Shown: positions 4,658 through 50,655 of the stretch, one piece after another
How the letters are laid out: each line of letters opens with the position of its first letter
Position numbering within the stretch: position 1 is the first letter of the stretch
Assembly: GCA_916048095.2 (NCBI GenBank)
Contig: OU696578.1
Coordinates: forward strand, 3,036,798-3,100,797
Length of the DNA: 64,000 bases
DNA from: Sacculina carcini
Lineage: Eukaryota; Arthropoda; Thecostraca; Sacculinidae
Direction: 5' to 3'
Position numbers and translations under genes: made by a program
Notes under the pieces: generated by a model
The model's database searches: none
What the model was told of the DNA's origin: nothing
The model's input: the letters and a program-made list of their open reading frames with translations, nothing else

Positions 4658-4687
4658 TCTATATATATAGATTATTATATAGATTAT

Positions 4688-4718
<31 letters not shown>

Positions 4719-8614: not shown

Positions 8615-8627
8615 CTGGCGACTACCT

Positions 8628-9639: not shown

Positions 9640-10158
9640 TTTGTCCTTATTTCTTTGAACAACTCACAAACTACAAACTTCACAAAGTGAGTGCGATCAA
9701 AGGGTGCATCATCCAGGTCCGTTGTCAGTTGGACAGCGCGTGTGGGTGAAACCGCCTGATGCGAGATGCACTACACATTGGAATCATGGTCGTGTGACCG
9801 GAATCAATTCGACACAAAGCGTCGACATCAATGGCATCCTTTTGTTTATAACTGTGGTGTGAATTTGCATGTATTGTACGTTGAGCTGCCCCGTAAATAA
9901 CTGGGTCTCGATCTGCCTATGAGAGCGTATAGTGTATGAGTGTATGTGCGTGTGCGTTTGCTTGTGTGGTGTGTAGCCTTGACCGGCGCGAGGACAGTCG
10001 TGTAGCGCGAAGGGCGCGGTGTGCGTGGCGGAATTTGATCGTGTGGCATATATCGAAGTTGTGTTCGACTTTCTGGGTTGAGAGTGCATTTTGTGGACAG
10101 TGTGTTCCTTGTGCAGTATTGATTCCATTGTTATTCTATATATATATATATATATATA
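9640..10158. other. Unassigned segment between pol and minus-strand Helitron array
   Basis: This is comparatively GC-rich, non-Helitron DNA. The part nearest pol (to about 9,760) has pol-like codons in shifted frames on the minus strand and is probably the decayed upstream part of the retroelement. From 9,780 to 10,140 I recognise nothing; frames of 99-114 codons are open on both strands, but none has a recognisable domain. It ends in (TA)n (10,139-10,158) abutting the CTAG end of S2. Confidence 0.5.
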
Positions 10159-10373
10159 CTAGCATTAAAACCCGCCCGTTGTGCGGAGCAATTCATAACA
10201 TGAATAACTGCCCGCGGGACATTTTTATTTCATAAAAATGAGCCATCGCTTCGTTTGCGTTTGAAGCCCCTGATCATTGAACCAGCGAACCATGAACCAG
10301 CGCAATTATGTCACCTCATATTCAAGCATACATACATAGACAGACAGATAATTTCTTCTTTATGTATATATAT
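10159..10373 (-). mobile_element. Short Helitron-like element S2, internally deleted
   Basis: The 3' end CTAG lies at 10,159-10,162, followed (plus-strand reading) by CATTAAAACCCGCCCGTTGTGCGG. The S-type head, with AGACAGATAATTTC, lies at 10,341-10,373. The body is only about 215 bp, with the central palindrome region missing compared with S3. Copy at 37,022-37,236. Confidence 0.65.
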
Positions 10374-10793
10374 AGCATTAAAACCGCATTAAAACCCGCC
10401 CGTTGTGCGGAACAATTCATAAAAATATTGCAAATTAAAAATAAATAAGGCCAACTCATGAAGACCTTAATCAATTAAAAAGTCTAAATTTCATTATTTT
10501 TAATTTTATTTTGACAAAATATTTTCACTCAACCCGCCTCATATTTAAACCCGCCCGACGTGAGGAATAATTCAGAACTCGAACACCATCCGTTCTGGTT
10601 CTTGAAGTCAAATCCATTAGTTTTGTATATGAATTCATTCTATACGGTGAAATTGAACGTTTTATTGCTACCCGCGGGACATTTTTATTGCATAAAAATG
10701 AGCCATGAACCATGAACCAGCGCAATTATGTCACCTCATATTCAAGCATACATACACAGACAGACAGATAATTTCTTCTTTATGTATATATAT
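10374..10793 (-). mobile_element. Short Helitron-like element S3
   Basis: The tail starts near 10,375, with a small duplication of GCATTAAAAC. A terminal-type palindrome is at about 10,397 and an internal one at about 10,548. The S-type head is at 10,760-10,793, fused to the next tail through (TA)n without a clean CTAG. It sits head to tail with S2 and M1. Copies: 37,237-37,656 and two related units at 57,840-58,751. Confidence 0.65.
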
Positions 10794-25676: not shown

Positions 25677-27307
25677 TTTCGCATAAAGAAGTTGCACTCA
25701 CGCACCCGGTTATGTTATATGATGAAAAAAGTATACTTCATCGGGCACAATTATTTATGTATTAGTACGACGTTTCGCCTCAACAAGGCTTTATCAAGTA
25801 CTGTTTTATAAAATACATCAAAAAGACGAGCCAAGAACACAACATATTTAGTAGATATAAGTGAATATAAACATTAAGACACGCGTATATGATTTTGACA
25901 CACTTTTAAGTAAATTATATATAACTAACAATCCACAATTACATGCAATAAATATTACCATTAAATCAGAATTTGCAATTAAGTTCAATTCCTTTGCAGC
26001 CGTTCATGATGCAGCTGGAGTCATTTTCTTGAATGTATGCTGCCTCTGCATATCTTCTAGTAGCATCGTCTAATATTCCGCTGTGTATAACTGTCCACTT
26101 TATCGATACTTCCATTTTGTTATGCTCTTCCATGAAATGCTTTATAATTGGACCTCCCAGCTTATAGTTGGAGTGTTCCAGGATCCTTACACGTACTGGT
26201 CGCGAGGTCTCACCAATGTAGATTTTTCCACATACCGTGCACACTATCTTATAAATTACATTTTTCCTCCAACATAGTTTTCTGTCGGGACTCATGGATG
26301 TGGCACAGGTATCACATTGTGGTGCGCATCTGAAACGCTCTCTTGGTGGAGCGAAAATCCGCTTCAGCGGTCGACCCGGGTCGAACCACACCCGTATTTT
26401 CCCCTGGAGACCTGTTCTCTTGATGAGGGAATAACATTGTCGGCGACTGCTCTCACCCAGATACGGTAGTTTGATAAAATATTTGGCTTCCTTGCTTTCA
26501 GCTTGCTTGTCTACTCTGATATCTCTAATTGCCTTGTTCTTGCTCCTTTTGATCACATAGTCGGGGTAGCCATTTTGTCTAAATCGGTTCTCAATGGTCT
26601 TAATGGAAGTCTGAAGTGTCGCCGGTGTAGTGGCTCTTCTCGAAGCCCTCACAAATTCCCCATATGCTATTGCACACTTGGCACTTTTTGGACCATTAGA
26701 CATCCAAGATGTGATTGAGCCGCTGTGGTGAGGCTTCATGTATACCTCAGATACAAATTGTTCACCGTTGTAGCTGATGTTGCAGTCCAAAAAAGCCAGT
26801 CTGCCATTCTTCGGCAGCTCAATAGTAAACTCAATAAAATTTGAGATGGAATTGGCGGTAGCTAGCAACACTGCGGTGTCAATGTCGTCATACCAAGCTA
26901 CAAATATATCATCGATGTATCTCTTGTATTTGAGTGGCCGATGAAATGCCGTTTGAAATTGCTGGTCCAAATAGTCGGCGAATATGATGGCCAGTTGAGG
27001 AGCCAGTGGATTGCCCATTGATAATCCTTCGATCTGTTTATAGAGTTTAGCTCCCTGAATGACGACATCATTTGATATGGCCATATTGACCAAATAAAAA
27101 ATATCCTCAACCGCCATATCATGAAACATATCGTCTTTGGACTTGTTGTTAATTAAAAAGTCACGTAACACTTCATCTAGGCCCTTATTGTTGTCATCTG
27201 AGCAGCGTGGAATAGTGCCATATAAGTTTTTTATGTCAAGAGAGGCAAACCCCTTTACTCCGCATTGTGGTAGTGCTTAAATAAATAAAGACTTCGAAAC
27301 TTTGAGC
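25677..27307 (-). mobile_element. Penelope-like retroelement copy 2, 5'-truncated, inverted
   Basis: Reverse complement of 1-1,594, with about 37 bp more at its 3' end (25,677-25,713). By eye almost identical to copy 1; one difference is at 27 versus 27,281. It lies head to head with copy 3, separated by 70 bp, an arrangement common for Penelope-type integrants. The hammerhead-like motif is at 25,764-25,802. Confidence 0.9.
25966..27276 (-). CDS. Penelope reverse transcriptase with GIY-YIG endonuclease, 5'-truncated (copy 2)
   Basis: The predicted protein is identical to that of copy 1 over the 401 residues downstream of the GTG at 27,171, including YIDD, the Cys cluster and the GIY-YIG core. 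It is open from just after an in-frame TAA (27,277-27,279) to the TGA at 25,966-25,968. The missing N-terminal RT motifs make autonomous activity unlikely. Perfect protein identity between inverted copies 24 kb apart suggests very recent copying or conversion. Confidence 0.9.
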   Translation of the reverse strand, partial: ALPQCGVKGFASLDIKNLYGTIPRCSDDNNKGLDEVLRDFLINNKSKDDMFHDMAVEDIFYLVNMAISNDVVIQGAKLYKQIEGLSMGNPLAPQLAIIFADYLDQQFQTAFHRPLKYKRYIDDIFVAWYDDIDTAVLLATANSISNFIEFTIELPKNGRLAFLDCNISYNGEQFVSEVYMKPHHSGSITSWMSNGPKSAKCAIAYGEFVRASRRATTPATLQTSIKTIENRFRQNGYPDYVIKRSKNKAIRDIRVDKQAESKEAKYFIKLPYLGESSRRQCYSLIKRTGLQGKIRVWFDPGRPLKRIFAPPRERFRCAPQCDTCATSMSPDRKLCWRKNVIYKIVCTVCGKIYIGETSRPVRVRILEHSNYKLGGPIIKHFMEEHNKMEVSIKWTVIHSGILDDATRRYAEAAYIQENDSSCIMNGCKGIELNCKF

Positions 27308-27377: not shown

Positions 27378-28148
27378 AAGCCTCACCACAGCGGCTCAAT
27401 CACATCTTGGATGTCTAATGGTCCAAAAAGTGCCAAGTGTGCAATAGCATATGGGGAATTTGTGAGGGCTTCGAGAAGAGCCACTACACCGGCGACACTT
27501 CAGACTTCCATTAAGACCATTGAGAACCGATTTAGACAAAATGGCTACCCCGACTATGTGATCAAAAGGAGCAAGAACAAGGCAATTAGAGATATCAGAG
27601 TAGACAAGCAAGCTGAAAGCAAGGAAGCCAAATATTTTATCAAACTACCGTATCTGGGTGAGCGCAGTCGCCGACAATGTTATTCCCTCATCAAGAGAAC
27701 AGGTCTCCAGGGGAAAATACGGGTGTGGTTCGACCCGGGTCGACCGCTGAAGCGGATTTTCGCTCCACCAAGAGAGCGTTTCAGATGCGCACCACAATGT
27801 GATACCTGTGCCACATCCATGAGTCCCGACAGAAAACTATGTTGGAGGAAAAATGTAATTTATAAGATAGTGTGCACGGTATGTGGAAAAATCTACATTG
27901 GTGAGACCTCGCGACCAGTACGTGTAAGGATCCTGGAACACTCCAACTATAAGCTGGGAGGTCCAATTATAAAGCATTTCATGGAAGAGCATAACAAAAT
28001 GGAAGTATCGATAAAGTGGACAGTTATACACAGCGGAATATTAGACGATGCTACTAGAAGATATGCAGAGGCAGCATACATTCAAGAAAATGACTCCAGC
28101 TGCATCATGAACGGCTGCAAAGGAATTGAACTTAATTGCAAATTCTGA
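27378..28148 (+). pseudogene. Penelope ORF remnant: C-terminal half with GIY-YIG
   Basis: Retains residues 146-401 of the copy 1 numbering; an in-frame TGA lies directly upstream. All RT catalytic motifs are lost. The Cys cluster and GIY-YIG domain are intact. One substitution relative to copy 1 was seen (LGERS for LGESS, residue 241). It cannot act as a reverse transcriptase. Confidence 0.9.
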
Positions 28149-28398
28149 TTTAATGGTAATATTTATTGCATGTAATTGTGGATTGTTAGTTATATATAAT
28201 TTACTTAAAAGTGTGTCAAAATCATATACGCGTGTCTTAATGTTTATATTCACTTATATCTACTAAATATGTTGTGTTCTTGGCTCGTCTTTTTGATGTA
28301 TTTTATAAAACAGTACTTGATAAAGCCTTGTTGAGGCGAAACGTCGTACTAATACATAAATAATTGTGCCCGATGAAGTATACTTTTTTCATCATATA
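27378..28398 (+). mobile_element. Penelope-like retroelement copy 3, strongly 5'-truncated
   Basis: Begins at GAAGCCTCACC or one base earlier, equivalent to 571 of copy 1, and runs to the same 3' junction with a type I Helitron head. This breakpoint is also the left end of the long direct duplication of 571-12,960. Hammerhead-like motif at 28,312-28,350. Confidence 0.9.
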
Positions 28399-28402
28399 TC
28401 TA

Positions 28403-31400
28403 TCTATATATATAAAAGAGATCCTCTGTCTGTGTGTTTGTCTGTCCCACCCTCCTTGGTCACATTTTCAGCAAGCTGCTCCTCAGTAACCACTTGGTGT
28501 ACGCACCAACAATTTATACCATTACGCTGGAAATTTTCTTGTCTACACGATAGGATAAATTTTAAATTTTAAAAATAAAACCAAAAAAAGTTATCGCGGT
28601 GAAAAGACAAAATGAACCCTGAAAAATGCGAAAATTTTGGTCAATATTCCTACATCTACTCCTCATAAATTACAAATGGTACAGCCAAACAGATTATACC
28701 ACTGTGTAGAGAATTTTCTGTTCTACAAGATAAGTTATAATTCATATCCAAAAATAGAACATAAAAGATGTAAACATGACAAAATTTCAATCTATATTCA
28801 AAATTATATTTAAACTCCACGCGTCCGATTTTCTATACTTTTTTCTCTATGTATCAAAAACTAATTATCACACATCTAAATAAATAATACCATCATGCTG
28901 GGAATTTTGTTTGCTACAACACGGTATAACTTTTAATTTTCCAAAGTGTATTAAAAAAAGTTACCGCGGTGTGAAGTCAAAATGACAAAGTCAAAAATGC
29001 AAAATTAGCACTGAAAAACGCGAATATTTTGGTCAATATTCCGCTATCTATTCCTCATAAACCAGCAATGGTAAAGCTATAAAAATTATACCATTGTGTA
29101 GATAATTGTGTGTTCTACAAGAAAAGTTATAATTTATACCCACAAATGATACAAAAAATGTGTAAAATTCGCAAAATTTTCAAATACATCCAAAATTACA
29201 CTTGATCACCGGGCGCCTAAATTAATTAATTTTTCTACCTATTTCTCAGGAACTATTTGTCACACATTAAAATAAATTATATCATCGTGCTGGAAATTGT
29301 ATTTTTTAAAATGCGGTATAATTCTTAATTTTCCAAAGTGTATCTGAAGGAAGTGACGGCGGTGTAAAGTCAAAAGAACATATTGCCAATTTGACAGCTA
29401 TTATGCGCACTTGCGATTACACAGGAATATACTACTGTGTAGAGAATTTTGTGTTCTACAAGAAAAGGTATAATTTATACCCACAAATGATACAAAAAAC
29501 GTGTAAAATTGGCAAAATTCTTAAATACATCCAAATTTACACTTGAACACCGGGCGACTAAAATTGATTCATTTTTCTACTATTTCTCAGTAACTATTTG
29601 TTACATATAAAAATAAATTATACCATCGTGCTAAAAATCTTTTTTTCTACAATACGGTATAATTTGTAATTTTCCAAAGTGTATCTGAAGGAAGTTACGG
29701 CGGTGTAAATTCAAAAGGACATATTGCCAATTTGACAGCTATTATGCGCACTTGCGATTACACAGGAATATACTACTGTGTAGATAATTTTGTGTTATAC
29801 AAGATAAGTTATAATTTATACACACAAATGATACAAAAAACGTGTAAAATTGGCAAAATTCTCAAATTCATCCAAAATTGCACTTGAACACCGGGCGACT
29901 AAAATTTATTCATTTTTTACGTATTTCTCAGTAACTATTTGCTACACATAAAAATAAATTATACCATCGTGCTAGAAATCTTGTTTTCTACAATACGGTA
30001 TCATTTGTAATTTTCCAAAGTGTATCTGAAGGAAGTTACGGCGGTGTAAATTCAAAAGCACATATTACCAATTTGACAGCTATTATGAGCACTTGCGATT
30101 ACACAGGAATATACACCGATTAAATTTCACTGAAGCCCAATCACAATTAAGAATGCATCATATTAGCTCCAAGCATGGATGGTGTGGTTTTATTGGGTAC
30201 AGTTTAATTAATGCTACACTATACTGAATAGAAAGGCTTTATTGTCCTCAATATTACTGGGAACAAAACTACAGTAGTAAATACTACTGGGAACAAAACT
30301 ACAGTAGTAAATACTACTGGGAACAAAACTACAGTAGTAAATACTACTGGGAACAAAACTACAGTAGTAAATACTACTGGGAACAAAACTACAGTAGTAA
30401 ATACTACTGGGAACAAAGTTAACTACTGAATTTTACTGTATAATTTAATTGGCTTAATTTCAAGTTGCATAAGCTTAAGTTGCATAAGGATATGGGTTGT
30501 ATTATCATACAATGCCAACTATATGAATATGCTGTTTTAGCGGACGCATAAATCTGGAATTATAGAGATGACAGCAGGTTTCATAGTTTTGATAGTGTTA
30601 CACTTCTGAATTACTACACACGAAGGACGGGTGTGAATTTGAGCAGTGTTGAGGGAAAAAACTTCGTCAATAATTAAAACAAGAATTTACAAATATGTAT
30701 TTTTCTATTGGATCAGCTTTTTGCTTTTGGATTCATTATATTTTATTTATAGTCCCGCACGACGGGCGGGTTTAAATACGAGGCTGTTCGAGGGAAAATA
30801 TTTTGTCGCATCTAAAATAAAAACATTCATATTTAGACTTTTCTATTGTTTAAGAATTTTTAGGGGTTTACTTTTTCTTTTTTAATTTCTGATCGTTTTT
30901 TATTAATTCAATATTCATTATACTTTATTTATTGTTCTGCTCAACGGGCGGGTTTTAATGATAGATGGTGATGTTGAGTTATAAATATATTTTGAAAACA
31001 GTATGATAAAAAATTAGTCATTTTTCATTGTTTTGTGTCTGAGTTCTGAATCATTCAGCACGACGGGCAGGTTTAAATATGAGGCGGTTTAGGCAAACTA
31101 TTTTGTCAAAATAATATAAAAATATAGAAATTTAGACTTTTTATGGGTTTACTCTTTTCTTTATTAATTCATATTTATTTTCTCTTATAAATTGAATAAA
31201 AATTTAATGGTATAAATTGTTTCGCACGACGGGCCGGTTTATATGCTAGAATTTCCATTGTTTGTTGTGTTTTTGTTCTGAATTATTCCGCACGACGGGC
31301 AGGCTCAAATATGAGGCGGATTGAGGGATAATATTTTGTCAAATTTAAATTTAAAATATTGACATTTTGAGTTTTTTATTGGTGAACGTATATACAGGTT

Positions 31401-31493
31401 AAATTTTAGCTTTTTTATTTGTATTCAGTTTATTTTATGGATTGAATATGAATTTTACTTTATGAATTGTTCCGCACGACGGGCGGGCTCAAA
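28403..31493 (+). mobile_element. Helitron-like unit P1', duplicate of P1
   Basis: Same organisation and, by eye, nearly the same sequence as 1,597-4,657. Differences seen are one extra 30-bp minisatellite unit (30,257-30,406) and scattered substitutions (for example CGCACC for CGCGCC near 28,502). Head, array boxes, spacer and tail palindromes are all present. Confidence 0.75.
30257..30417 (+). repeat. 30-bp minisatellite, five units
   Basis: Full units start at 30,257, 30,287, 30,317, 30,347 and 30,377, with a partial one at 30,407. One more unit than the copy at 3,451. Confidence 0.95.
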
Positions 31494-31528
31494 TCTATAT
31501 ATATAGATTATTATATAGATTATTATTT

Positions 31529-31576
<48 letters not shown>

Positions 31577-32018
31577 TAAAAGAAATTATCTGTCTGTCTG
31601 TGTACGTGTATGCTTGAATATGAGGTGACCTAACTGCGCGGGCTCAATGGTATAGATCAGGGCCTTGAAACGTAAACGAAGCGATGGATCATGTTTATGA
31701 GATAATATTGTCCCGGGGGCATCAACTGTAGACAATAGAACGTGTAATTTCACCGTGTAAAACGAGTTCATATACAAAACTAACGGATTTGACTTCAAGG
31801 TCCAGAACGGATCGTGTTTGAGTTCTGAATTATTCCGCACGTCGGGCGGGTTTAAATATGAGGCGGGCTGAGGGAAAATATTTTGTCCAAATAAAATAAA
31901 AAATAATGAAATTTAGACTTTTCGATTGATTTAGGTTTTTATGAGTTTGCCATATATATTTTTTAATTTGCAATATTTTTATGAATTTTTCCGCACAACG
32001 GGCGGGTTTTAATGCTAG
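31494..32018 (+). mobile_element. Short Helitron-like element S1'
   Basis: Duplicate of S1 from TC at 31,494 to CTAG at 32,015-32,018. It is about 18 bp longer through a longer (TA)n tract. The junction with P2' is again CTAG directly followed by TC. Confidence 0.75.
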
Positions 32019-34608
32019 TCTATATATATAAAAGAGATCCTCTGTGTGTCTGTGTGTGTGTCTGTGTGTGTGTCTGTGTGTGTGTTCGACCCTCCTTGGT
32101 CCATTTTCTATCAGCTATTATTCGGCCACCACTCAGCCTACCCGCTAACAATTTATACCATCACGTTGGAAATCTTCTTTTCTACACTTCAGATTAAATT
32201 TTAAATTTCAAAAATTGAATCAAAAAAAGTTATAGCGGTGAAAAGACAAAATGAACCCTGAAAAATGCGAAAATTTTGGTCAATATTCCTATATCTACTC
32301 CTCATAAACCAGAAATGGTACAGCCAAACAGATTATACCACTGTGTAGAAAATATTCTGTTCTACGCGATAGGCTATAATTAATATCCAAAAATTAAATA
32401 TAAAATATGTAAAAATGACAAAATTTCAGTCTACATTCAAAATTATATTTAAGCTCGACGCGTCCGATTTTCTGTACTTTTTTCTCTATTTCTCTACAAC
32501 TAAACATCACACATCTAAATAAATATTACCATCATGCTGGGAATTTTGTTTTCTACAGCACGGTATAAATTTTAATTTTCCAGAGCGTATTAAGAAAAAG
32601 TTACGGCGGTGTGAAGTCAAAATGACAAAGTCAAAAAGGCACTGAAAAACGCGAATATTTTGGTCAATATTCCGCTATCTATTCCTCTTAAACCAGCAGA
32701 GTTACAGTTATAAAAATTATACTATTGTGTATAAAATTTTGTGTTCTACAAGAAACGCTATAATTTATACCCACAAATGATACAAAAAACGTGTAAAATT
32801 GGAAAAATTCTCAAATACATCCAAAATTACACTTGAACACCGTGCGACTAAAATTAATTCATTTTTCTACCTATTTCTCAAGAAATATTTGTTACACATA
32901 AAAATAAATTATACCATTGTGCTGAAAAGTTTGTTTTCTACAATACGGTATAATTCTTAATTTTCCAAAGTGTATCTGAAGGACGTTACGGCGGTGTAAA
33001 GTCAAATGGACATATTGCCAATTTGACAGCTATTATGCGCACTTGCGATTACACAGGAATATACTACTGTGTAGAGAATTTTGTGTTCTACAAGAAAATG
33101 TATAATTTATACCCACAAATGATACAAAAAACGTGTAAAATTGGCAAAATTCTCAAATACATCCAAAATTACACTTGAACACCGGGTGACCCAAATTAAT
33201 TCATTTTTTTACCCATTTCTCAGGAACTGTTTGTCATACATTAAAATTAATTATACCATCGTGCTAGAAATTTCGTTTTCTACAATACGGTATAATTTTT
33301 AATTTTCCAAAGTGTATCTGAAGGAAGTTACGGCGGTGTAAAGTCAAATTGTCATGTTGCCAATTTGACAGCTATTATGCGCACTTGCGATTACACATGA
33401 ATATACACTGATATAATTTCACTGAAGTCCAATCATAATTTACGCACTTGCGATTACACAGGAATATACTACTGTGTAGATAATTTTGTGTTCTACAAGA
33501 TAAGCTATAATTTATACCCACAAATGATACACAAAACGTGTAAAATTGGCAAAATTCTCAAATACATCCAAAATTTCACTTGAACACCGGCCGAATAAAA
33601 TTAATTAATTTTTCTACTATTTCTCAGTAACTATTTGTTAAACATAAAAATAAATTATACCATCGTGCTAGAAATCTTGTTTTCTACAATACGGTATAAT
33701 TTGTAATTTTACAAAGTGTATCTGAAGGAAGTTACGGCGGTGTAAAGTCAAATTATCATGTTGCCAATTTGACAGCTATTATGCGCACTTGCGATTACAC
33801 AGGAATATACACCGATTAAATTTCACTGAAGCCCAATCACAATTAAGAATTCATCATATTATCTCCAAGCATGGATGGTGTGGTTTTATTGCGTACAGTT
33901 TAATTAATGCTACACTATACTGAATATAAAGGCTTTATTGTCCTCAATAACGGAATATACTACTGTGTAGAAAATTTTGTGTTCTACAAGAAAAGGTATA
34001 ATTTATACCCACAAATGATACAAAAAACGTGTAAAATTGGCAAAATTCTCAAATACATCCAAAATTACACTTGAGCACCGGGTGACTAAATTTTATTCAT
34101 TTTTCTACCTATTTCTCAAAAACTAATTGTGACACATTAAAATGAATTATACCATCGTGCTAGAAATTTTGGTTTCTACAATACGGTATAATTCTTAAAT
34201 ATCCAAAGTGTATCTGAAGGAAGTTACGGCGGTGTAAAGTCAAAATGTCATGTTGCCAATTTGACAGCTATTATGCGCACTGGCGATTACACATGAATAT
34301 ACACTGATTTAATTTCACTGAAGTCTAATCACAATTGACGCACTTGCGATTACTCAGGAACATACTACTGTGTAGAGAATTTTGTGTTCTACAAGATAAG
34401 CTATAATTTATACCCACAAATGATAAAAAAAACGTGTAAAATTGGCAAAATTCTCAAATCCATCCAAAATTACACTTGAACACCGGGCGACTAAAATTAA
34501 TTCATTTTTCTACCTATTTCTCAGGAAATATTTGTTACACATAAAAATAAATTATACCATCGTGCTAGAAATTTTGTTTTCTACAACACGGTATTATTCT
34601 TAATTTTC
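32019..34608 (+). mobile_element. Helitron-like unit P2', 3'-truncated duplicate of P2
   Basis: Type II head at 32,019 with a longer GTGT/GTCT tract than P2, and the same array and truncation point against the pol fragment. Small differences: a one-base A insertion in a homopolymer near 34,430 and GAAATA for GAACTA near 34,525. Confidence 0.7.
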
Positions 34609-35481
34609 AAAGAAATGTTCAAAGTGAAGTTGTGAGTCACTCACACACTCGTCAGACGCATGATGCGGGTCTCTCCATGGGTACTTATACGTACGGCAGC
34701 ACGGAGCTGTTTCGTCGTTGATGTCTTCTCGAGGTGAAAAATTAAGCCAAAATACAGCCATCAGAGGAGATATACCGGCCGGTTCGGCTGTCCGCTTCAC
34801 AGCTCGGTGACTTCTTTCAGCTATTCCGTTGCCAGACGGTCTATAGGCAGCTCGATAAATACGACGAACAGACCAGCTGCGACACACGTCAGCGACTTGA
34901 CCAGAACGGAACGATGCACTGTTATCCAATAAAATCTCTCTAATTGGTCCACGCTCTCTACATAACTCGTCAATCAACTTGGCAATAGTTGACGCATTAT
35001 CGGAAGTTATTTCTTTCTACACCATGAATCTACTCGGGCCACTATCAATCGTCGTAAAGTAACTTCTTCCGCGGTAATGTGTAACATCCATAGCGACGCG
35101 AACCCAATTCTCGTTCACTGATAACGAATTATCATCAGTTTCAGCGTAAAATACCGGCGCTGGATCAACACTCAGACACTTTGAGCAATATTTAACACAC
35201 CGAAAAACTTCTGCACGAGTCACTATTAGATCAACGTTTCTGGCTAACGCCAATGTGCGATTTACACCAAGATGGTGACGAGCGTGTGATTGTTCAATGT
35301 TCAAAAAACAGGTTGATAAGGGTTTTATCCAACGATTGGGCACTCTGGTAAGTGCATCAGATTTGTTATCTTGGGATGACACTAGCTCCACCCGTATCTT
35401 CAAGTGAAACTTTTCTATCATCATTTCGAAGAAAGTCAAGCGACGACGAATTATCATCTCAGCATTGCTCGTGCTTCTCAC
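34600..35481 (-). pseudogene. LTR-retrotransposon RNase H end/zinc finger/integrase, duplicate
   Basis: Copy of 7,733-8,614 with the same in-frame TAG (35,017-35,019) and the same truncation. Only one coding difference was seen (Thr for Met in YFTxIDSGPSRF, near 35,051). Shared lesions show the pol fragment was already dead when the block duplicated. Confidence 0.85.
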
Positions 35482-35494
35482 CTGGCGACTACCT

Positions 35495-36506
35495 TCAATT
35501 GTCTATTTCAGCCAGTTCTTTGTCGTCACAGAATCGGTATATATGGAATCGGTATAATTCTTCCAGGCACCATTTCAACGACGCGTTGACACCTCGAAGC
35601 ACTGCGTCGAGTTCGGCAACGTTGATGTGATGCGAGTCATTCACTTTACGCAGCCAGCTAAAAACCTCAACAATTTCTCCATCGATTTCAATTGCAACCC
35701 CGAACGCCAAACTACTCGCGTCACATCACACTGCTCCAACTTTAGTACTTGGAACATGCCACACGCCTTTAACAGGATCGTCAGAGTGTACGCGCTCCAA
35801 CACGTATCGTAACATTGATGCACACTGTTCTCCTGCATAATCCGAACATTTGGTGCCATCACAAGCCCTTTTCAAATAACTGCAGGCCACCCGCAGCCAA
35901 TTCGCCACCGGGTAATGACCAATCAATTTTCCGCAGATAGAAAACACTTCGCGTTTATTGATGTTTTCTGCAACAGTTGCTGGGATCTTATTCCCACGTG
36001 AAAATCTCAATTTGTTATTCACAACTTCCAATTGTAACCCAAGTACTTTTTGGCCGTTCAGCTGTTGCGGTTGTTTCGCGACCAAACCATATATGCTTAG
36101 ATGTTCCAGCACGTTCATGGCGGCCACTATATCTTCGTTGACTATTTATTACTTCGTTGACTTTATTGACTATTATGTCGTCAATGTAGTTGTCGCAAGC
36201 AGCATTCATTCTCACGTCGACCGACAGTATCTTCTTGATAATATTGGTCATTATCTTTGGTGCGCAGTATAAGCCGAAGCCCATCCTAGTCAGATAGTAA
36301 TACTTGCCGTTATGCTTGACACATTGATACTCCCAGAGCGATTCCTCGACAAATATTTGCAAATATGCAGATTTGAGGTCCACTATTGCAAGTTTCCCAC
36401 ACATACGCCGCCACTTCCGCAACGTTTCGCCACACACAGCCACATCACTACCGGGCTGACTCTCCACATAGTAATTCAACTGAAGAAAATCCAATACCGG
36501 GCGCAC
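35495..36506 (-). pseudogene. LTR-retrotransposon reverse transcriptase/RNase H, duplicate
   Basis: Copy of 8,628-9,639 with the same 19-bp frame-breaking duplication (36,133-36,162), the same TGA at 35,726-35,728 and the same second frameshift. YIDD is at 36,177-36,188. One coding difference was seen in RNase H (Asn for Ser, RKVNDSHH). Confidence 0.85.
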
Positions 36507-37021
36507 TTTGTCCTTATTTCTTTGAACAACTCACAAACTACAAACTTCACAAAGTGAGTGCGATCAAAGGGTGCATCATCCAGGTCCGTTGTCAGTTGGA
36601 CAGCGCGTGTGGGTGAAACCGCCTGATGCGAGATGCACTACACATTGGAATCATGGTCGTGTGACCGGAATCAATTCGACACAAAGCGTCGACATCAATG
36701 GCATCCTTTTGTTTATAACTGTGGTGTGAATTTGCATGTATTGTACGTTGAGCTGCCCCGTAAATAACTGGGTCTCGATCTGCCTATGAGAGCGTATAGT
36801 GTATGAGTGTATGTGCGTGTGCGTTTGCTTGTGTGGTGTGTAGCCTTGACCGGCGCGAGGACAGTCGTGTAGCGCGAAGGGCGCGGTGTGCGTGGCGGAA
36901 TTTGATCGTGTGGCATATATCGAAGTTGTGTTCGACTTTCTGGGTTGAGAGTGCATTTTGTGGACAGTGTGTTCCTTGTGCAGTATTGATTCCATTGTTA
37001 TTCTATATATATATATATATA
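36507..37021. other. Unassigned segment, duplicate of 9,640-10,158
   Basis: Same sequence as the first copy, with a (TA)n tract about 4 bp shorter before CTAG at 37,022. No recognisable gene. Confidence 0.5.
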
Positions 37022-37236
37022 CTAGCATTAAAACCCGCCCGTTGTGCGGAGCAATTCATAACATGAATAACTGCCCGCGGGACATTTTTATTTCATAAAA
37101 ATGAGCCATCGCTTCGTTTGCGTTTGAAGCCCCTGATCATTGAACCAGCGAACCATGAACCAGCGCAATTATGTCACCTCATATTCAAGCATACATACAT
37201 AGACAGACAGATAATTTCTTCTTTATGTATATATAT
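37022..37236 (-). mobile_element. Short Helitron-like element S2'
   Basis: Duplicate of S2: CTAG at 37,022-37,025, S-type head near 37,204-37,236, central region missing. Confidence 0.65.
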
Positions 37237-37656
37237 AGCATTAAAACCGCATTAAAACCCGCCCGTTGTGCGGAACAATTCATAAAAATATTGCAAATTA
37301 AAAACAAATAAGGCCAACTCATGAAGACCTTAATCAATTAAAAAGTCTAAATTTCATTATTTTTAATTTTATTTTGACAAAATATTTTCACTCAACCCGC
37401 CTCATATTTAAACCCGCCCGACGTGAGGAATAATTCAGAACTCGAACACCATCCGTTCTGGTTCTTGAAGTCAAATCCATTAGTTTTGTATATGAATTCA
37501 TTCTATACGGTGAAATTGAACGTTTTATTGCTACCCGCGGGACATTTTTATTGCATAAAAATGAGCCATGAACCATGAACCAGCGCAATTATGTCACCTC
37601 ATATTCAAGCATACATACACAGACAGACAGATAATTTCTTCTTTATGTATATATAT
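37237..37656 (-). mobile_element. Short Helitron-like element S3'
   Basis: Duplicate of S3, with the same GCATTAAAAC duplication at the tail and the same (TA)n-mediated junction to the next unit. Confidence 0.65.
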
Positions 37657-40600
37657 AGCATTAAAACCCGCCCGTTGTGCGGAGCAATTCATAACATGAA
37701 ATTCGTATTCAATTCGTAAAAATATATGGAAAAATAAAAATGAAATAGGGTACACTCATAAAAATATTAATCAATTGAAAATTATAAGTTTAATTATTTT
37801 TATTTCGACAAAATATTTCCCCTCAGTCCGCCTGAGTCATTTTTATACCCGCCCGTCGTGCTGAATAATTCAGAACTCGAACACGATCCGTTCTGGATGT
37901 TGAAGTCAAATCCATTGGTTTTGTGTATGGATTAATTCTACAGGGTAAATTGAACGTTCTATTGTCTATAGTTGCTGCCCGCGGAGCATTTTTATTTGTA
38001 AAAAAATAGCTTTTTCAAATGAACCATTTGAAAAAAATGAACTAAAAAATTGAAACACTTTTTTTAAATGAGCCATTTGAAAAAATGAACTAAAAAATGG
38101 AAACACCTTTTTTAAACCCGCCGGTCGTGGGGAACAATTCATACAATAAAATTCATATTTGAAGTCAAATCCATTGGTTTTGAGTATGGATTAATTCTAC
38201 AGGGAAAATTGAACGTTCTATTGTCTATAGTTGCTGCCCGCGGAACATTTTTATTTAAAAAAAAAAACTTTTTTTATATGAACCATTTGAAAAAATGATC
38301 TAAAAACACTTTTTTAAACCCACCCGTCGTGCGGAACAATTCATACAATAAAATTCATATCAAATCCATAAAATATAATGAATACAAATTGAAAAGCAAA
38401 AAATGTAACATATAAATATCTTATCCAATAGAAAAGTCTAAATGTGAATATTTTTGTTCTTATTTTGACAAATATTATCCCTCAACCCGCCTGATATATA
38501 AATGTGCCCGTCGTGTGGTATAATTCAGAACACAAACACGAAACAAACAATGAAAGATGATGAAATCTTTTCATCAGAATGTTTCCAAACTATATTTATT
38601 ACTTAACATCATTCCCCAATATCATTTGCTTAAGTACTATTTCACTTTTACCGCTATAATATTTATTGTTAAAATTTATATATTTTCCGCTATCATTAAA
38701 ACCCAATATAACCTGAGTCAAACCTACCCAACCCAACCCAGCCATTCAATCTTGACCGCTCTCAGCCTAGTCTGGGGTGATTTAACTTATTAGTTTGTGA
38801 TCACAAAATATACTGATGCGATCATAATTTGTAATCAGAAGACTGAGATTATCTACCCCAGGGGTCCCAAACACGCGGCCCACCAATACTTTTCTCTCAA
38901 CCCGCCAATATAGTATCGGGACCAAACTGTAAGGTAGCTAAATTCACATTTGTTGCATAATGCGATATAATTATACACCATTATCATATTATCTCATAAT
39001 TCCCGGTTAATGCTTCCACTAATGCATCATATTCATACAGTTGTTATTTTTTGGATTACACCGATAATACAGCCCTTGATATTACAGCCGATATTATATT
39101 ATGCAATCTATATTCTGCTACGTATTATTCCTAATACATATATCATCAGATCGCAAAATATATTTAAAGGTTCACATCATTCTCCAAAATCATTTGCTTA
39201 AGAGCTATTCTACTTTTATCGCTAGAATATTTACTGCTAGCAAAATATCATATACCTCGCTATCATTTAAACCCACTCTTTATAGGTACATTTAACAGTT
39301 CATAAAATATAATTAATATTCAATTCATAAAAATATTAGTGCAAATTGAAAAATAAAAACAAACCCACAGGCAAGTTATAGCTAATATAAAAGTCTAAAT
39401 GTGAAATTTATGTTTCAATTTAGAAAACATGTTTTTCCACAACACTATCAAAACAATGCAACCTTCTGTCATCTCTATAATTCCAGGTTAATGCTTCCGC
39501 TAAAACAGCATAAGTTGGCATTACATGATATTGCAACCCATATCCTTATGCAACTTATGCTTATGCAACTTGAAATTAAACCAATTAAATTACACAGTTA
39601 AATTCAGTAGTTTACTTTGTTCCCAATAGCATTTTACCCGCCCGTCGTGCGGAACGTTATTGAGGACAATAAAGCCTTTATATTCAGTAGATTGTAGCAT
39701 TAATTAAACTGTACGCAATAAAACCACACCATCCATGCTTGGAGATAATATGATGCATTCTTAATTGTGATTGGGCTTCAGTGAAATTTAATCGGTGTAT
39801 ATTCCTGTGTAATCGCAAATGCGCATAATAGCTGTTAAATCGGTAATATGTGCTTTTGACTTTACACCGCCGTAACTTCCTTCAGATACACTTTGGAATA
39901 TTACAAATTATACCGTATTGTAGAAACCAAGATTTCTAGCACGATGGTATAATTTATTTTTATGTATAACAAATAGTCACTGAGAAATAGTAGAAAAATG
40001 AATTATTTTTAGTCGCCCGGTGTTCAAGTGTAATTTTGGATGTATTTGAGAATTTTGCCAATTTTACACTTTTTTGTATCACTTGTGGGTATAAATTGAA
40101 GCTTATATTGTAGAACACAAAATTATCTACACAGTAGTATATTCCTGTGTAATCGCAAATGCGCATAATAGCTGTCAAATCGGTAATATGTGCTTTTGAC
40201 TTTACACCGCCGTAACTTCCTTCAGATACACTTTGGAATATTACAAATTATACCGTATTGTAGAAAACAAGATTTCTAGCACGATGGTATAATTTATTTT
40301 TATGTATAACAAATAGTTACTGAGAAATAGTAGAAAAATGAATTAATTTTAGTCGCCCGGTGTTCAAGTGTAATTTTGGATGTATTTGAGAATTTTGCCA
40401 ATTTTACACGTTTTTTGTATCATTTGTGGGTATAAATTATAGCTTATCTTGTAGAACACAAAATTCTCTACACGGTAGTATATTCCTGTGTAATCGCAAG
40501 TGCGTAAATTGTGATTGGACTTCAGTGAAATTTAATCAGTGTATATTCATGTGTAATCGCAAGTACGCATAATAGCTGTCAAATTGGCAGCATGACATTT

Positions 40601-43385: not shown

Positions 43386-46162
43386 TATAGCATTAAAACC
43401 CGCCCGTTGTGCGGAGCAATTCATAACATGAAATTCATATTCAATTCATAAAAAAATATGGAAAAATAAAAATGAAATAGGGTACACTCATAAAAATATT
43501 AATCAATTGAAAATTATAAGTTTAATTATTTTTATTTCGACAAAATATTTCCCCTCAGTCCGCCTGAGTCATTTTTAAACCCGCCCGTCGTGCTGAATAA
43601 TTCAGAACTTGAACACGATCCGTTCTGCATCTTGAAGTCAAATCCATTGGTTTTGTGTATGGATTAATTCTACAGGGTAAATTGAACGTTCTATTGTCTA
43701 TAATTGCTGCCCGCGGAGCATTTTTATTTTTAAAAAAATACCTTTTTTCAAATGAACCATTTGAAAAAATGAACTAAAAAATGGAAACACTTTTTATAAA
43801 CCCGCCTGTCGTGCGGAACAATTCATACAATAAAATTCATATTTGAAGTCAAATCCATTGGTTTTGTGTATGGATTAAATCTACAGGGGAAATTGAACGT
43901 TCTATTGTCTATAGTTGCTGGCCGCGGAACATTTTTATTTAAAAAAAATTACCTTTTTTAAATGAACTATTTGAAAAAATGATCTAAAAAAAACACTTTT
44001 TTTTAAACCCACCCGTCGTGCGGAACAATTGATACAATAAAATTCATATCAAACCCATAAAATATAATGAATACAAATTGAAAAGCAAAAAATGTAACCT
44101 ATAAATATCTTAACCAATAGAAAAGTCTAAATGTGAATATTTTTGTTCTTATTTTGACAAATATTATCCCTCAACCCGCCTGATATATAAATCTGCCCGT
44201 CGTGTGGTATAATTCAGAACACAAACACGAAACAAACAATGAAAGATGATGAAATCTTTTCATCAGAATGTTTCCAAACTATATTCATTACTTAACATCG
44301 TTCCCCAATATAATTTGCTTAAGTATTATTTCTTTTTTACCGCTATCATATTTATTGTTAAAATTTATATATTTTCCGCTATCACTAAAACCCAATATAA
44401 CCTGAGTCAAACCTACCCAACCCAACCCAACCATCCAATCTTGACCGCTCTCAGCCTAGTCTGAGGTGATTTAACTTATTAGTTTGTGATCACAAAATAT
44501 ACTGATGCGATCATAATTTGTAATCAAAAGACTGAGATTATCTACCCCAGGGGTCCCAAACACGCGGCCCACCAATACTTTTCTCTCAACCCGCCAATAT
44601 AGTATCGGGACCAAACTGTAAGGCAGCTAAATTCACATTTGTTGCATAATGCGATATAATTATACATCATTATCATATTATCTCATAATTCCCGGTTAAT
44701 GCTTCCACTAATGCATCATATTCATACAGTTGTCATTTTTTGGATTACACCGATATTACAGCCCTTGATATTACAGCCGATATTATATTATGCAATCTAT
44801 ATTCTGCTATGTATTATTCCTAATACATATATCATCAAATCGCAAAATATATTTAAAGGTTCACATCATTCTCCAAAATCATTTGCTTGAGAGCTATTCT
44901 ACTTTTATCGCTAGAATATTTACTGCTAGCAAAATATCATATACCTCGCTATCATTTAAACCCACTCTTTATAGATACATTTAATTCGCTCGTCGTGCGG
45001 AACAGTTCATAAAATATATTTAATATTCAATTCATATAAAAATTAGTGCAAATTGAAAAAGAAAAACAAACCCATAGGAAAGTTTTAGCCAATATAAAAG
45101 TCTAAATGTGAAATTTATGTTTAAATTTAGAAAACATGTTTTTCCACAACACTATCAAAACAATGCAACCTTCTGTCATCTCTATAATTCCAGGTTAATG
45201 CTTCCGCTAAAACAGCATAAGTTGGCATTACATGATATTGTAGCCCATATCCTTATGCAACTTATGCTTATGCAACTTGAAATAAAACCAATTAAATTAC
45301 ACAGTTAAATTCAGTAGTTTACTTTGTTTCCAGTAGCATTTTACCCGCCCGTCGTGCGGAACATTTGATGTGTAAATAGAGGACAATAAAGACTTTCTAT
45401 TCAGTATAGTGTAGCATTAATTAAACTGTACGCAAAAAAAACATACCATCCATGCTTGGAGATAATATGATGCATTCTTAATTGTGATTGGGCTTCAGTG
45501 AAATTTAATCGGTGTATATTCCTGTGTAATCGCAAGTGCGCATAATAGCTGTCAAATTGACAATATGTCTTTTTGAATTTACACTGCCGTAACTTCCTTC
45601 AGATACACTTTGGAAAATTACAAATTATACCGTATTGTAGAAAACAAGATTTCTAGCACGATGGTATAATTTATTTTTATGTGTCATAGTTAGTTGCTGA
45701 GACATAGAGAAAAAAGTACAGAAAAGCGGACGCGTCGAGCTTAAATATAATTTTGAATGTAGACTGAAATTTTGTCATTTTTACATATTTTATATTTAAT
45801 TTTTGGATATGAATTTTAACCTACCGAGTAGAACAGAATATTTTCTACACAGTGGTATAATCTGTTTGGCTGTACCATTTCTGGTTTATGAGGAGTAGAT
45901 GCAGAAATATTGACCAAAATTTTCGCATTTTTCAGGGTTCATTTTGTCTTTTCACCGCGATAACTTTCTTTGGTTTTATTTTTAAAATTTCAAATTTAAC
46001 CTATCGTGTAGAAAATAAAATTTCCAACGTAATGGTATAAATTGTTGGCGGGTACACCAAGTGGTTACCGAGTCGCAGCTTGCTGAAAATGGACCAAGGA
46101 TGGTGGGACAGACAGACAGACAGACAGACACACAGACAGAGGATCTCTTTTATATATATAGA
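43386..46162 (-). mobile_element. Helitron-like unit M7 (head type I)
   Basis: The tail starts GCATTAAAACCCGCCCG at 43,390; palindromes at about 43,400, 43,579, 43,802, 44,009, 44,195, 44,991 and 45,345; hAT-like motif near 44,549; spacer 45,440-45,530. The array is short (boxes near 45,590 and 45,955). The head has (CAGA)n, and its TC 5' end at 46,161-46,162 directly follows ATGCTAG of the gene fragment. Confidence 0.75.
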
Positions 46163-48777
46163 CTAGCATCTCTAGCTGGGACTGCAGCCTCTCACGCTCC
46201 ACGTGTGCATTCTGCATGTCACTGCGCGATCGCTCTAGCTCCTTGCGCAACTTTTGCACTTCGACCGAGTCGTTCGATTTCTGGCTCAGCAACTGCTCGG
46301 ATGTCGTCATCTGCTGCTGTTGCTGGCTTATGGTAGTCTGCTGCTGCTCCAGCTGTTGCTGCTGCTGCTGCACCTGCTGACGGTACTGCTGCATCTCCTA
46401 CTTTATGGCACCGCTCACCTGCGCGCCGTCATTCTGAGCTTTCTCCAGAGTCACTAGCTTCTCGCTGAGTCGGTAGTTCTCCATGTTGGCCGAGTCCAGT
46501 TGGCCCCGTAGTTCTTTCAGTTGACTGTTCTCCATCTTGGCGGCCTCGAGCTGCTGTTGACGCTGCGAACTCTCGTTTTGGAAGGCGTCCAATTGTTGTT
46601 GCAATTGCTGAAGCTGGGCAGCCTCGCGCTGAGCAGACTCCAGTTGGGGTCGCATTTGTGATATCTCCTGTTGTGCCTGGTCCAGCTGGGAGCGCACCGA
46701 TTGTAGCTGCGTGCGTAGCTCCGATAGTGACTTCTCAGCAGCATTTGCACGCTCGCGTTCAATGTCCACGTTGGCTTGCAGTTTTTGTAAGAGCTCAGTG
46801 TCTGTGTGCGAGCTGCTGAGTGAAGCGCGAAGGTCACTTTCTACCTGGCGCAATCGATTCACCTCGCTTTCGTGAATCCGTTGCATGCTCTCCATTTCAG
46901 TCGTTTTCTGTTCGAGCTTCTGTGTGAGCTGGCGAATTTGCTGTTCACGTTCTTCACAGAGCGCCCGAACTCGAGTTTCTTCAGTTGAGCTATCCTCACC
47001 GTTTTTCGCAAGACTTTGTTCGGCCTTTTGTAAGCTCTCCTGAAAGTCGACCAGCATGCTTTGAGATTTTTCCAACTGGGTCATCAACTTGTCACGTTCG
47101 GCTGTGATGTGCGTCAATTCTCTCTCTAGCCTTTCGGCTTTTCTGTCTGATTCTCCGTCGGCATTCAATTTGTCATTGATCCGACTGGCTTTATTTTCTG
47201 CATCTTTGTGAGCCGCCCAAGCCTGCTCCAAAAGTCGCTGTGATTCTTGCAACTTGTCTTGCAAATTCTTTATCTGTATCTCGAAGTGTTGTCCGCTTGC
47301 GTCACTCTTGTTGACAACTTCTTGCAGTTGTTGGCGTGACTTTTCCGAATTTCTCAATTCACCGGATACCTGCTCAAGTTTATTATGCAACGACTCGATT
47401 TCGGTAACCATTTTTTCAAATTCGACTTTGGCTGCCTCAGTGCTATCCTTATATTTCGTGAGCCTCTGTTGAGTGTGCTCTAATTCGCGAGTCAATCGTT
47501 GCACATCGGCATCTGACGAGCGTTTGTTCTCGTCGGCCTTTTGTAGATCAGTCTGGGCCTTTTCCAACTTACCGCGCAATCTGTTAACCTCACTCGACAT
47601 CTTCTCTATCTCACCTTGGTTATTGTCCTGTAGTCCACGACGACGATCGAGCTCTGCGTGTGCCTGATGAAGCTCTCCGCGCACGCGACCGTTCTCCGAC
47701 TCAAGATGCTCAACCCGCTGCTCCATTCTCAGAGCATCTCCCTGGGCTTTCTCGTACCGTGCTCGTATGCGCTCCATTTCCATTTTTGTACGATCGATGT
47801 CTCCTTGACTCTGCTCTTTCTCTGACGCCAGGCGTGTTTTGTTCGAATCGTATTTGTCCAGTTCTTTTTGCAGCCTTGCCGTTTCTTCTTGAGACCGCTC
47901 ACTTTGATAACGTAATTTGCGAATCTCTATCTGTGCCATGTCGTATTTCTCACGCACTCGTTCCATTTCGCTCTGTAGAACTTCAGCATGTATCCTGGAC
48001 TTACCATCATCTGACATTGTTATTCCTTGCTCTGTTTCAACTCTTTCAAGCTCTATTCGCAGTTTGGCAGCTTCTTGTTCGAAACGGTCGCGCATCAAGT
48101 GCTCCGTCTCTAAATCCATTTGAGACTTGTCCAGTTTCTCTTTCACCCGTTCAAGCTCAAACTTCAATCGCTCCTGCTCTTCTCTGTGTTTTTCCTGTGT
48201 GTCTTGATACTTGCCCATGCGGGCAAGGTAGCGTTCCATCTCCAACTGACAGGTTTCGGCCTCCTGTTGTGCTCTATCGCGTTCTGCCTGAGCCTTGCGC
48301 AGTTCGTTTGTACAGCGCTCAGCCTTTTCATAGGCCTTATCGACGTCGACCTGTAGACGAGCCACCTCCTCGTTGCTGCGGTCTTGCGTGTTCTGCATTT
48401 TCTGATATTGACATTTTGCTCGTTCGACGTCAAATTGAAGTTTTTCAACGTCCTCTTTCAATTGCTCTCGTTCATTTGCCAATTTTTTGGCGTCCATTTG
48501 CGATTTGTCGAACTTCTCTCTTAGCCTATCCATATCCATGTTGACCTTTTCCATTTCCTCTCTGGTCCGTTATTCGTTGTCTTTCAAGCGCATAAATTGT
48601 ACAGCACTGCGATCGTAGAGTTCCTGTAGTTTCTCGAGTTCTTCTTGTGATCTACGTTGTTCTTCTCTAGTTTTATTCAGCAGCAACATGGATTTTTCTC
48701 CCTCGGCTTGAAGGCGGTCCTGTTCGGATTGTGCCGATTCAAGTCGAGTCTGAAGTGGCAGTACTTCTCCTTGTGAC
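46163..48777 (-). pseudogene. ELKS/CAST/Bruchpilot-like coiled-coil exon, captured and broken
   Basis: One minus-strand frame of about 870 codons, interrupted only by TAA (48,570-48,572) and TAG (46,398-46,400). The protein is a continuous heptad-type coiled coil rich in Glu, Gln, Lys and Arg, with recurring blocks such as MERVREKYDMAQ, MERIRARYEKAQ and FELERVKEKLDKSQ, then a Gln-rich C-terminal stretch. This pattern resembles the ELKS/CAST/Bruchpilot presynaptic active-zone scaffold; other long coiled-coil proteins cannot be excluded. The 5' edge is a splice acceptor (CAG, 48,780-48,778). The 3' edge is cut inside coding sequence at CTAG (46,166-46,163), where Helitron M7 begins, so the frame runs on into the Helitron head. 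GC and codon use contrast sharply with the AT-rich surroundings. Confidence 0.75.
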
Positions 48778-48876
48778 CTGGTGAAATCACAAAATAGCAC
48801 ACATTAGTGACGCAAATTAGCTGAAATGGAAGAATGCTGGGTCATAAGAAAACACACACAAACTCATGGAGCGAAC
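48778..48876 (-). other. Retained intron of the captured gene
   Basis: 99 bp on the minus strand from GTTCGC (48,876) to TTTCACCAG (48,778). Donor context ACAG|GT and acceptor CAG|G. The phases match: AG from the upstream exon plus G from the downstream exon makes Arg. Keeping the intron means the fragment came from DNA, not from a processed mRNA. Confidence 0.75.
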
Positions 48877-48914
48877 CTGTCGTGTTTCTCCACAACTCGA
48901 TCGTACTCTCGTCT
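48877..48914 (-). pseudogene. Upstream exon remnant of the coiled-coil gene
   Basis: About 38 bp encode RREYDRVVEKHD followed by a split Arg codon, in phase with the next exon. The exon is cut at about 48,914, where sequence changes to GTGCGGAACAATTCATAAAAT, the inside of a Helitron tail palindrome. No splice acceptor is present on this side. Confidence 0.75.
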
Positions 48915-50553
48915 GTGCGGAACAATTCATAAAATCTATTCATATTCAATCCGTAAAATAAAATGAAAACAAATTAAAAAGCAAACAAATTAAAGCTGTA
49001 AATATGCTAACTAATAGTAAAGTCCAAATATGGATGTTTTTATTTTAATTTTGACAGAATATTATCCCTCAACCCGCTTCATATTTAAACCTGCCCGTCG
49101 TGCGGAATAATTAAAAATTCAGACACGAAAAATGAAAATTGTCTAAATTTTTTATCATAATGTTTCCAAAGTATATTTATAAATTAACATCATCTAGCAT
49201 TGAAACCATCCCGTATAGCGGAACAATTAGAACAAAAAGTAATCTAAATATTGAATTAATAAAATTACTAATACAAATAAAAAAATTAAAAAAGCAAGCC
49301 CATAAATAGTCTTAACCAATAGAAAAGTCTAAATATGAATGTGTTTATGTTAGATGTGGCAAAATATTTTTCCTCGAACAACCTCGTATTTAAACCCGCC
49401 CGTCGTGCGGAACTATTAATAAAATATAATGAATCAAAAATCAAAAAGCTTATCCAATATAAAAATATAAATGTGTAAATTATTGTTCTAATTATTGACG
49501 AATTTTTTCCCTCAACACTGCTCAAATTCACACCCATCCTTCGTGTGTAGTAACTCAGAAGTGTAACACTGTCAAAACAATGCAACTTTCTGTCATCTCT
49601 ATAATTCCAGGTTAATGCTTCCGCTAAAACAGCATATTCATATATTTGGCATTGCATGATATTACAACCCATATCCTTATGCAACTTACGCTTATGCAAC
49701 TTGAAATTAAACCAATTAAATTATACAGTAAAATTCAGTAGTTTACTTTGTTCCCAGTAGCATTTTACCCGCCCGTCGTGCGGAACGTTATTGAGGACAA
49801 TAAAGCCTTTATATTCAGTATAGTGTAGCACTAATTAAACCCTACGCAATAAAACCACACCATCCATGCTTGGAGCTAATATGATGCATTCTTAATTGTG
49901 ATTGGGTTTCAGTGAAATTTAATCGGTGTATATTCCTGTGTAATCTCAAGTGCGCATAATAGCTGTCAAATTGGCAATATGTCCTTTTGACTTTACACCG
50001 CCGTAACTTCCTTCAGATACACTTTGGAAAATTACAAATTATACCGTATTGTGGAAAACAAGATTTCTAGCACGATGGTATAATTAATTTTTATGTGTAA
50101 CACATAGTTACTGAGAAATAGTAGAAAAATGAAAAAAAATTAGTCGCACGGTGTTCAAGTGTAATTTTGGATGTATTTGAGAATTTTGCCAATTTTACAC
50201 GTTTTTTGTATCATTTGTGGGTATAAATTATAGCTTATCTTGTAGAACACAAAATTACCTACACAGTAGTATATTCCTGTGTTATCGCAAGTGCGCATAA
50301 TAGCTGACAAATTGGCAATATGTCCTTTTGACTTTACACCGCCGTAACTTACTTCAGATATACTTTGGAAAATTACAAATTATACCGTATTGTAGAAAAC
50401 AATAAATTGTAATTGTAACAACAATAAATCGTTGGCGGGTACATTAAGTGGTTACCGAGTAGCAGCTTGCTGAAAATGGACCAAGGAGGGTGGGACAGAC
50501 AAACAAACACACAGACAGACAGACAGACAGAGGATCTCTTTTATATATATAGA
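48915..50553 (-). mobile_element. Helitron-like unit M8, lost its 3' terminus, carrier of the gene fragment
   Basis: The tail starts within the palindrome (GTGCGGAACAATTCAT), so the terminal CTAG and outer hairpin arm are gone and the gene fragment continues from that point. Palindromes follow at about 49,093, 49,395 and 49,768. Spacer near 49,860, array boxes near 50,000 and 50,340, type I head with (CAGA)n, TC end at 50,552-50,553. With the gene fragment it would form a chimeric element 46,163-50,553 of about 4.4 kb ending in CTAG. Confidence 0.7.
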
Positions 50554-50655
50554 TATATAGGCCTAAACCAAAGGAGTTGCAGTTGCCATACTTCCTGTAC
50601 TACTTTATGTTATCAATGGAAGTAGTTAATAATGAATATTAAAATTGTGTTGAAA
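50554..50655. other. Short unique segment between Helitron units
   Basis: About 100 bp (TATATAGGCCTAAACCAAAGG ... GTGTTGAAA) not matching any Helitron or S sequence in the window. It may be original host DNA at an array boundary or a scrap of captured DNA. No gene. Confidence 0.55.

Follow-up and report, generated by a model that had tools for sequence, protein, structure and literature searches.

The DNA analysed here, called the window throughout, is a stretch of 64,000 bp from the genome of Sacculina carcini (C10:3,036,798-3,100,797, in a genome of 264 Mb and 43 contigs), and units of one Helitron family make up much of it. One of these units, M8, consists of the 5' part of a Helitron joined to part of a host gene and is immediately followed by the head of the next unit (Table 1). 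The preliminary description of this locus had reported a TC head, a gene fragment in the same orientation, a 99-bp intron, and a stop in mid-exon at ATGCTAG just before the next head, all of which are confirmed by the sequence.

Table 1. Features of the chimeric unit M8 and its neighbours (positions in the window)
Feature	Positions	Strand	Basis
Chimeric Helitron unit M8, 4,391 bp, from the TC head to a chance CTAG	46,163-50,553	-	Head and end read directly; the full-length best match is itself only
5' portion of the Helitron, truncated at an internal palindrome	48,908-50,553	-	Dispersed relatives align to 48,908-48,915 and then diverge
Upstream joint, with GAG common to element and gene and one extra A	48,908-48,920	-	Chimera aligned with parent and relatives
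Segment taken from the C31 gene: final part of an exon, intron, most of a long exon	46,163-48,910	-	111 bp at 100% and 2,646 bp at 98.5%
99-bp intron without the parent's 348-bp insert	48,778-48,876	-	CTAATGTG flanks the insert in the parent; splice positions predicted from sequence
New 3' end ATGCTAG, with ATGCTAGT common with the family's own joint	46,163-46,169	-	Sequence read
Next Helitron unit, TC head immediately after the gene's CTAG	43,390-46,162	-	Head at 46,162, tail motif at 43,390
Foreign patch of about 98 bp that separates the broken tail of the preceding unit from the M8 head	50,554-50,655	-	Recurs twice on C2

In the window and at the loci retrieved from elsewhere in the genome, the heads of the family are described by TCTATATATATAAAAG and the tails by AATGCTAG, and both the 5' TC and the 3' CTRR of Helitrons are present. 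The head sequence is TCTATATATATAAAAGAGATCC and the tail sequence CCGCACAACGGGCGGGTTTTAATGCTAG, with several units of the window joined as CTAG|TC. There are 2,075 exact heads genome-wide (968 + 1,107) and 404 exact junctions of CTAG and head (192 + 212), and the control, in which the head and junction patterns were read backwards, gave 0 matches in the genome. CTAG stands immediately 5' of exact heads far more often than expected by chance. Among the 27 exact heads of the window and of 20 fetched loci, 20 are preceded by A and 7 by CTAG, and many flanks are TA repeats. The family tail carries CCGCACAACGGGCGG, giving a 4-bp stem about 10 nt before CTAG; two 50-nt pieces of it fold no better than shuffled sequences (z -0.23 and -0.34), though the expected short stem forms. 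The RepHel domain (PF14214) is found above its cut-off in the genome, with open frames of up to 1,834 aa, and provides a candidate autonomous partner for the family. Some tail-type motifs ending in CTAG lie inside units and are followed by ATGGTG-like sequence with no head (window positions 19,948 and 53,711; loci L015 and L028-L031); they seem to be ends that replication passes. The window also contains an inverted duplication (1-1,592 against 25,716-27,307, 99.9% identity) and a direct one (572-13,320 against 27,378-40,163, 99.0%), which represent either recent segmental duplication or an assembly artefact.

The junctions deviate from AATGCTAG in 19 of the 404 cases, of which 15 were inspected; the remaining 385 were assigned by subtraction and not individually. 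The inspected deviants comprise nine variants of the family tail, three other ends, two heads lying right after a CTAG whose preceding sequence has no recognised family tail (L035 and L048), and the M8 chimera. By resemblance, we judge the three other ends (L034, L046 and L047) to be of other repeat or Helitron type. Two of them share one end (CCGCACGAAGTGCGG in L046, ...GTCGCTAG in both L046 and L047), probably the tail of another Helitron family. L035 and L048 are possibly further new 3' ends, or cases where CTAG|T was used as a target. A 986-bp segment (L034:515-1500) lies directly 5' of a joint of CTAG and head, and we rejected it as a second host capture: it is a dispersed repeat, with 28 other copies reaching positions 982-985 of 986 (within 1-4 bp).

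The host part of M8 is a DNA-level copy, intron included, of C31:1,315,638-1,318,741. It aligns in two blocks, one of 111 bp without differences and an ungapped one of 2,646 bp at 98.5% identity, which overlap by 8 bp because of an insert in the parent. An intact gene elsewhere in the genome, which the preliminary description had proposed to look for, is thus present on C31. The capture of the gene as DNA, also proposed there, agrees with the GT...AG intron recognised in both the sequence and the parent (splice sites predicted), and this retained intron led us to reject a retrocopy. A Cast domain (PF10174, 42.4 bits for a cut-off of 29.1) is encoded by an open frame that lies further upstream in C31, on the strand of the gene, and the source gene is therefore probably of the Cast/ELKS/Bruchpilot type, where ELKS and Bruchpilot are the names that we take to apply to a gene of this kind. 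We infer that this frame and the captured exon belong to one gene. The protein search with the parent exon scored 7,985 candidates, none at E <= 0.001; the captured exon matched no Pfam family at its cut-off and gave no match in PDB.

The intron of the parent holds an insert of 348 bp (C31:1,315,749-1,316,096), absent from the captured copy, with CTAATGTG on either side as an 8-bp target duplication. The insert begins with CAGAGCCGT... and ends with ...ACGGCTCTG, features that, together with the duplication, we take as suggestive of a hAT-type MITE. Three of its pieces are 88-93% identical to a repeat of about 190 bp, of which one copy lies 1 kb upstream on C31 and others lie at 39 further scored places. 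Since the intron of the fragment is uninterrupted, the captured chromosome was one without the insert, and most simply the capture preceded the insertion into the parent's intron.

Copy and parent show 40 differences in 2,645 bp, of which 37 are exonic (20 synonymous and 17 nonsynonymous, the latter including two in-frame stop codons in the fragment). When the exon changes were placed at random on the parent, 9.5 synonymous changes (sd 2.5) and 2.7 stops were expected, and 0 of 2,000 trials reached 20 synonymous changes. From the excess of synonymous changes we conclude that constraint acted while many of the differences accumulated, which most simply happened in the parent, whereas the stop codons show that the fragment is now free of it.

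The upstream joint falls at a palindrome (at about 48,914) that was initially read as the 3' terminus of the element. This palindrome is instead one of several internal copies. The dispersed relatives (14 fetched loci, i.e., those above a 93% identity filter, 93-98% identical to the 5' part of M8) match the unit up to this site and then continue differently, e.g., with GACGAGCGACTTTAAATT. Among the 15 relatives with the palindrome site, a terminal-type tail follows 1.4-3.8 kb downstream in 8, and the DNA examined shows none in the other 7 (L012, L014, L016, L019, L023, L024 and L026). Measured from the site, the nearest terminal-type CTAG with a T after it lies at 1,369 bp in L020, 2,038 bp in L022, 2,067 bp in L018 and 2,071 bp in L015; it lies at 2.8-3.8 kb in L013, L017, L021 and L025, where further units may be included. 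M8 is thus cut about 1.4-2.1 kb short of the point at which the terminal CTAG stands in the four relatives with the shortest tails. It is a unit without its whole 3' tail, and hence not the product of reading through an intact 3' end. The joint itself reads CCGCACAGACGAG|AGTACG in the chimera and ...ATAGAG|AGTACG in the parent, i.e., a microhomology of 3 bp (GAG) plus one extra A.

The sequence at the downstream joint is GAGATGCTAGTTCAGG in the parent and GAGATGCTAGTCTATATA in the chimera, and the family's own joint reads AATGCTAGTCTATATA. The parent gene and the family joint have ATGCTAGT in common, and its final T can be assigned to either side. The host DNA thus lies directly 3' of the element, in the order of the source, and ends at a chance CTRR. 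The fragment contains six CTAGs and 30 CTRRs, and only the last CTAG is part of an ATGCTAG, a motif that is unique in the approximately 8.4 kb of the parent that were searched. The unit ends at CTAG|T exactly before a head, as in the 404 joints found genome-wide, and its own head is preceded by A. No significant hairpin was found at the new end (last 50 and 80 nt compared with shuffles, z -0.91 and -0.05).

The sequences adjoining the captured part in the parent, 2.6 kb before it and 4.3 kb after it, have no match beyond C31 other than dispersed repeats and simple sequence among the best 40 candidates scored for each. These genome searches skipped very common words, and a near-identical long copy should rank among the candidates scored. 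Because the adjoining gene sequence is found only at C31 among these candidates, the arrangement looks like a capture and not like an insertion into a resident gene, and we disfavour a resident gene copy split by the array. Missing exons beside the array and no other copy of the gene, the situation that had been set against capture at the outset, are not what we found: C31 holds both the gene and its adjoining sequence. That host DNA was captured in a Helitron context is almost certain.

We found no second copy of the chimera: the gene part occurs only in the window and on C31 among the best 40 candidates scored, and thus there is no sign that the chimera moved again. A search for an A|T empty site, in which the flank matches on C2 were compared, yielded no clean one. 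The flank of the M8 head matches two places on C2 at 99% over query positions 1-102, each directly 5' of a Helitron head. The unit at one of these places (624 bp of it read) is 83% identical to the next unit of the window, 70% to M8 and at most 87% to any window unit, against 99% for the flank. This unit is not M8, and we did not accept the C2 places as an empty site. The tail of the unit that precedes M8 is broken at AATGC, its last bases lost, and is followed by the roughly 98 bp of non-family DNA. With this patch and the gene fragment, there is foreign DNA on both sides of the M8 segment, each piece ending at a head. The patch could go back to another bypass, in this case by a unit whose CTAG was gone, or to additional patchwork repair.

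The explanation that we favour, with a probability that we judge, and did not compute, to be about 0.6, is that the unit is a Helitron chimera that originated by end bypass after the loss of the tail. An element copy would have inserted in the exon of the Cast-type gene on C31, in the sense direction of the gene. A deletion, a step that we infer, would then have removed its 3' part, including the terminal hairpin and CTAG, and joined the internal palindrome to the exon via GAG. In a later rolling-circle transposition, replication would have continued through 2.75 kb of host DNA and ended at ATGCTAG, and the product would have landed directly before the TC of another unit on C10. This modifies the scenario of the preliminary description, in which replication bypassed the terminator and adopted a chance CTAG. 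The chance CTAG as a new end stands, but a bypass of the normal terminator is not quite the right account: M8 has neither the terminator nor some 1.4 kb or more of tail before it, which means that these were already gone from the source element or that repair produced the join. The exact coincidence of the gene's end with a unit boundary favours end bypass over repair. Also on the side of end bypass are the source gene and the two joints as read in the sequence, the A before the M8 head, the lone ATGCTAG at the end of the fragment, and the RepHel proteins with long open frames in the genome. Against end bypass count the lack of a Helitron trace at the C31 site in this assembly, of a second copy (among the best 40 candidates scored), of a clean empty site, and of a hairpin at the new end, as well as the microhomologies of 3 bp and 8 bp, which match what filler repair predicts.

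The chief competitor of end bypass is the repair of a double-strand break with filler DNA, which we regard as possible though rather doubtful. A break in the tail of M8 within the array would have been repaired by copying 2.75 kb of the C31 gene, with entry at GAG and return at the 8-bp ATGCTAGT at the last bases of the unit. This requires no Helitron in the C31 gene, and the short sequences shared at the two joints (GAG and ATGCTAGT) and the second foreign patch, which flanks the other side of M8, speak in its favour. It also has a precedent in insect Helitrons, with junctions of 2-13 bp in the accessible part of PMC6544945. However, the return must hit a unit boundary exactly: the array has an 8-mer in common with the gene region at 7,628 positions on the same strand, and ATGCTAGT accounts for 8 of these. 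In addition, the M8 tail does not continue past the gene except for ATGCTAG, a motif that the gene carries itself. The argument from the boundary weakens if breaks gather at unit boundaries, e.g., at the nick sites of the transposase. End bypass and filler repair differ in what they predict for relatives, both in the C31 exon and in the C10 array, and the case is therefore testable.

The next unit might instead have inserted at CTAG|T in a longer resident copy of the gene, the rest of which was then lost by recombination in the array. Arrays can shrink by unequal exchange, and the heads in L035 and L048 stand directly after CTAG without a recognised family tail, but this course of events is improbable: it requires an extra loss, and the rest of the gene is found nowhere except on C31 among the best 40 candidates scored. 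Least credible of all is an assembly artefact, in which a haplotype of the C31 gene was misjoined into the C10 array: the chimera is single copy, the near-perfect large duplications of the window are difficult to assemble, the insert difference could be a polymorphism, and the synonymous excess (20 of 37 versus 9.5 expected at random) is also what two alleles would show, but both breaks fall at Helitron features, the 17 protein-changing exon differences are unlike a working allele, and the two in-frame stops among them lead us to disfavour an allele or misassembly.

The new end and the family end do have ATGCTAG in common, as had been pointed out; as the reason why the new end was accepted, this fits the choice of a terminator and an 8-bp microhomology alike. 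Tentatively, the transposase of the family might recognise a longer end (ATGCTAG, perhaps with the following T) well enough to terminate without a hairpin: five CTAGs were left behind by replication before it halted at the one ATGCTAG that the examined gene part contains. The size of captured segments would then be set by a 7-mer and could be predictable genome-wide.

The literature already contains Helitrons that capture genes, end bypass, hairpin-less new 3' ends and tandem Helitrons, as the accessible parts of PMC4778049, PMC6544945 and PMC5148889 attest, and M8 is a well-documented natural example of a known process, not a new kind. To judge from the accessible text of PMC4778049 and PMC6544945, the respective roles of end bypass and filler repair as routes of capture by Helitrons are still argued. 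M8 is mainly useful in this respect because its breakpoints and its source gene are all legible and because a later change in the parent gives a reference point for timing the capture, in a genome where head-to-tail Helitron joints are numerous.

The nearest likeness is to the end bypass of Helraiser/Helibat, for which we rely on the available portions of PMC4778049. Helraiser without its 3' end retained 6% of transposition, and its new ends arose by truncation or by downstream bypass, with a palindrome in none of five. A 1.6-kb downstream cassette was present in at least 36% of the events of the hairpin-less element, compared with about 11.7% for the intact one. These data fit a tail-less M8 in the C31 exon that may have run on to a chance CTAG. 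The new ends of Helraiser were CTTG, CTAC and AATG, not CTAG, which counts against bypass here (PMC4778049, same portions). In both systems, the 5' TC is kept, the 3' end is lost or ignored, downstream host DNA is taken, the new end has no hairpin, and A and T stand at the ends of the insertion, although in M8 only apparently so. By comparison with what is reported there, M8 is natural, has a known source, ends in a true CTAG within ATGCTAG, lies in a head-to-tail array, and was found in one copy.

The filler-DNA model, as presented in the accessible part of PMC6544945, predicts short shared sequence at the joints. The filler acquisition by the insect Hel1 described there resembles M8 in that host DNA has short shared sequence at both joints; in Hel1, however, the host DNA is internal to the element, whose own 3' end comes after it, whereas in M8 no family tail follows the gene. 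The tandem Helitrons of Myotis, Drosophila, rice and maize (PMC5148889, in the part available) consist of head-to-tail units, as here. Relative to those, the genome of S. carcini has 404 exact CTAG|TC joints, one of them after a fragment of a host gene.
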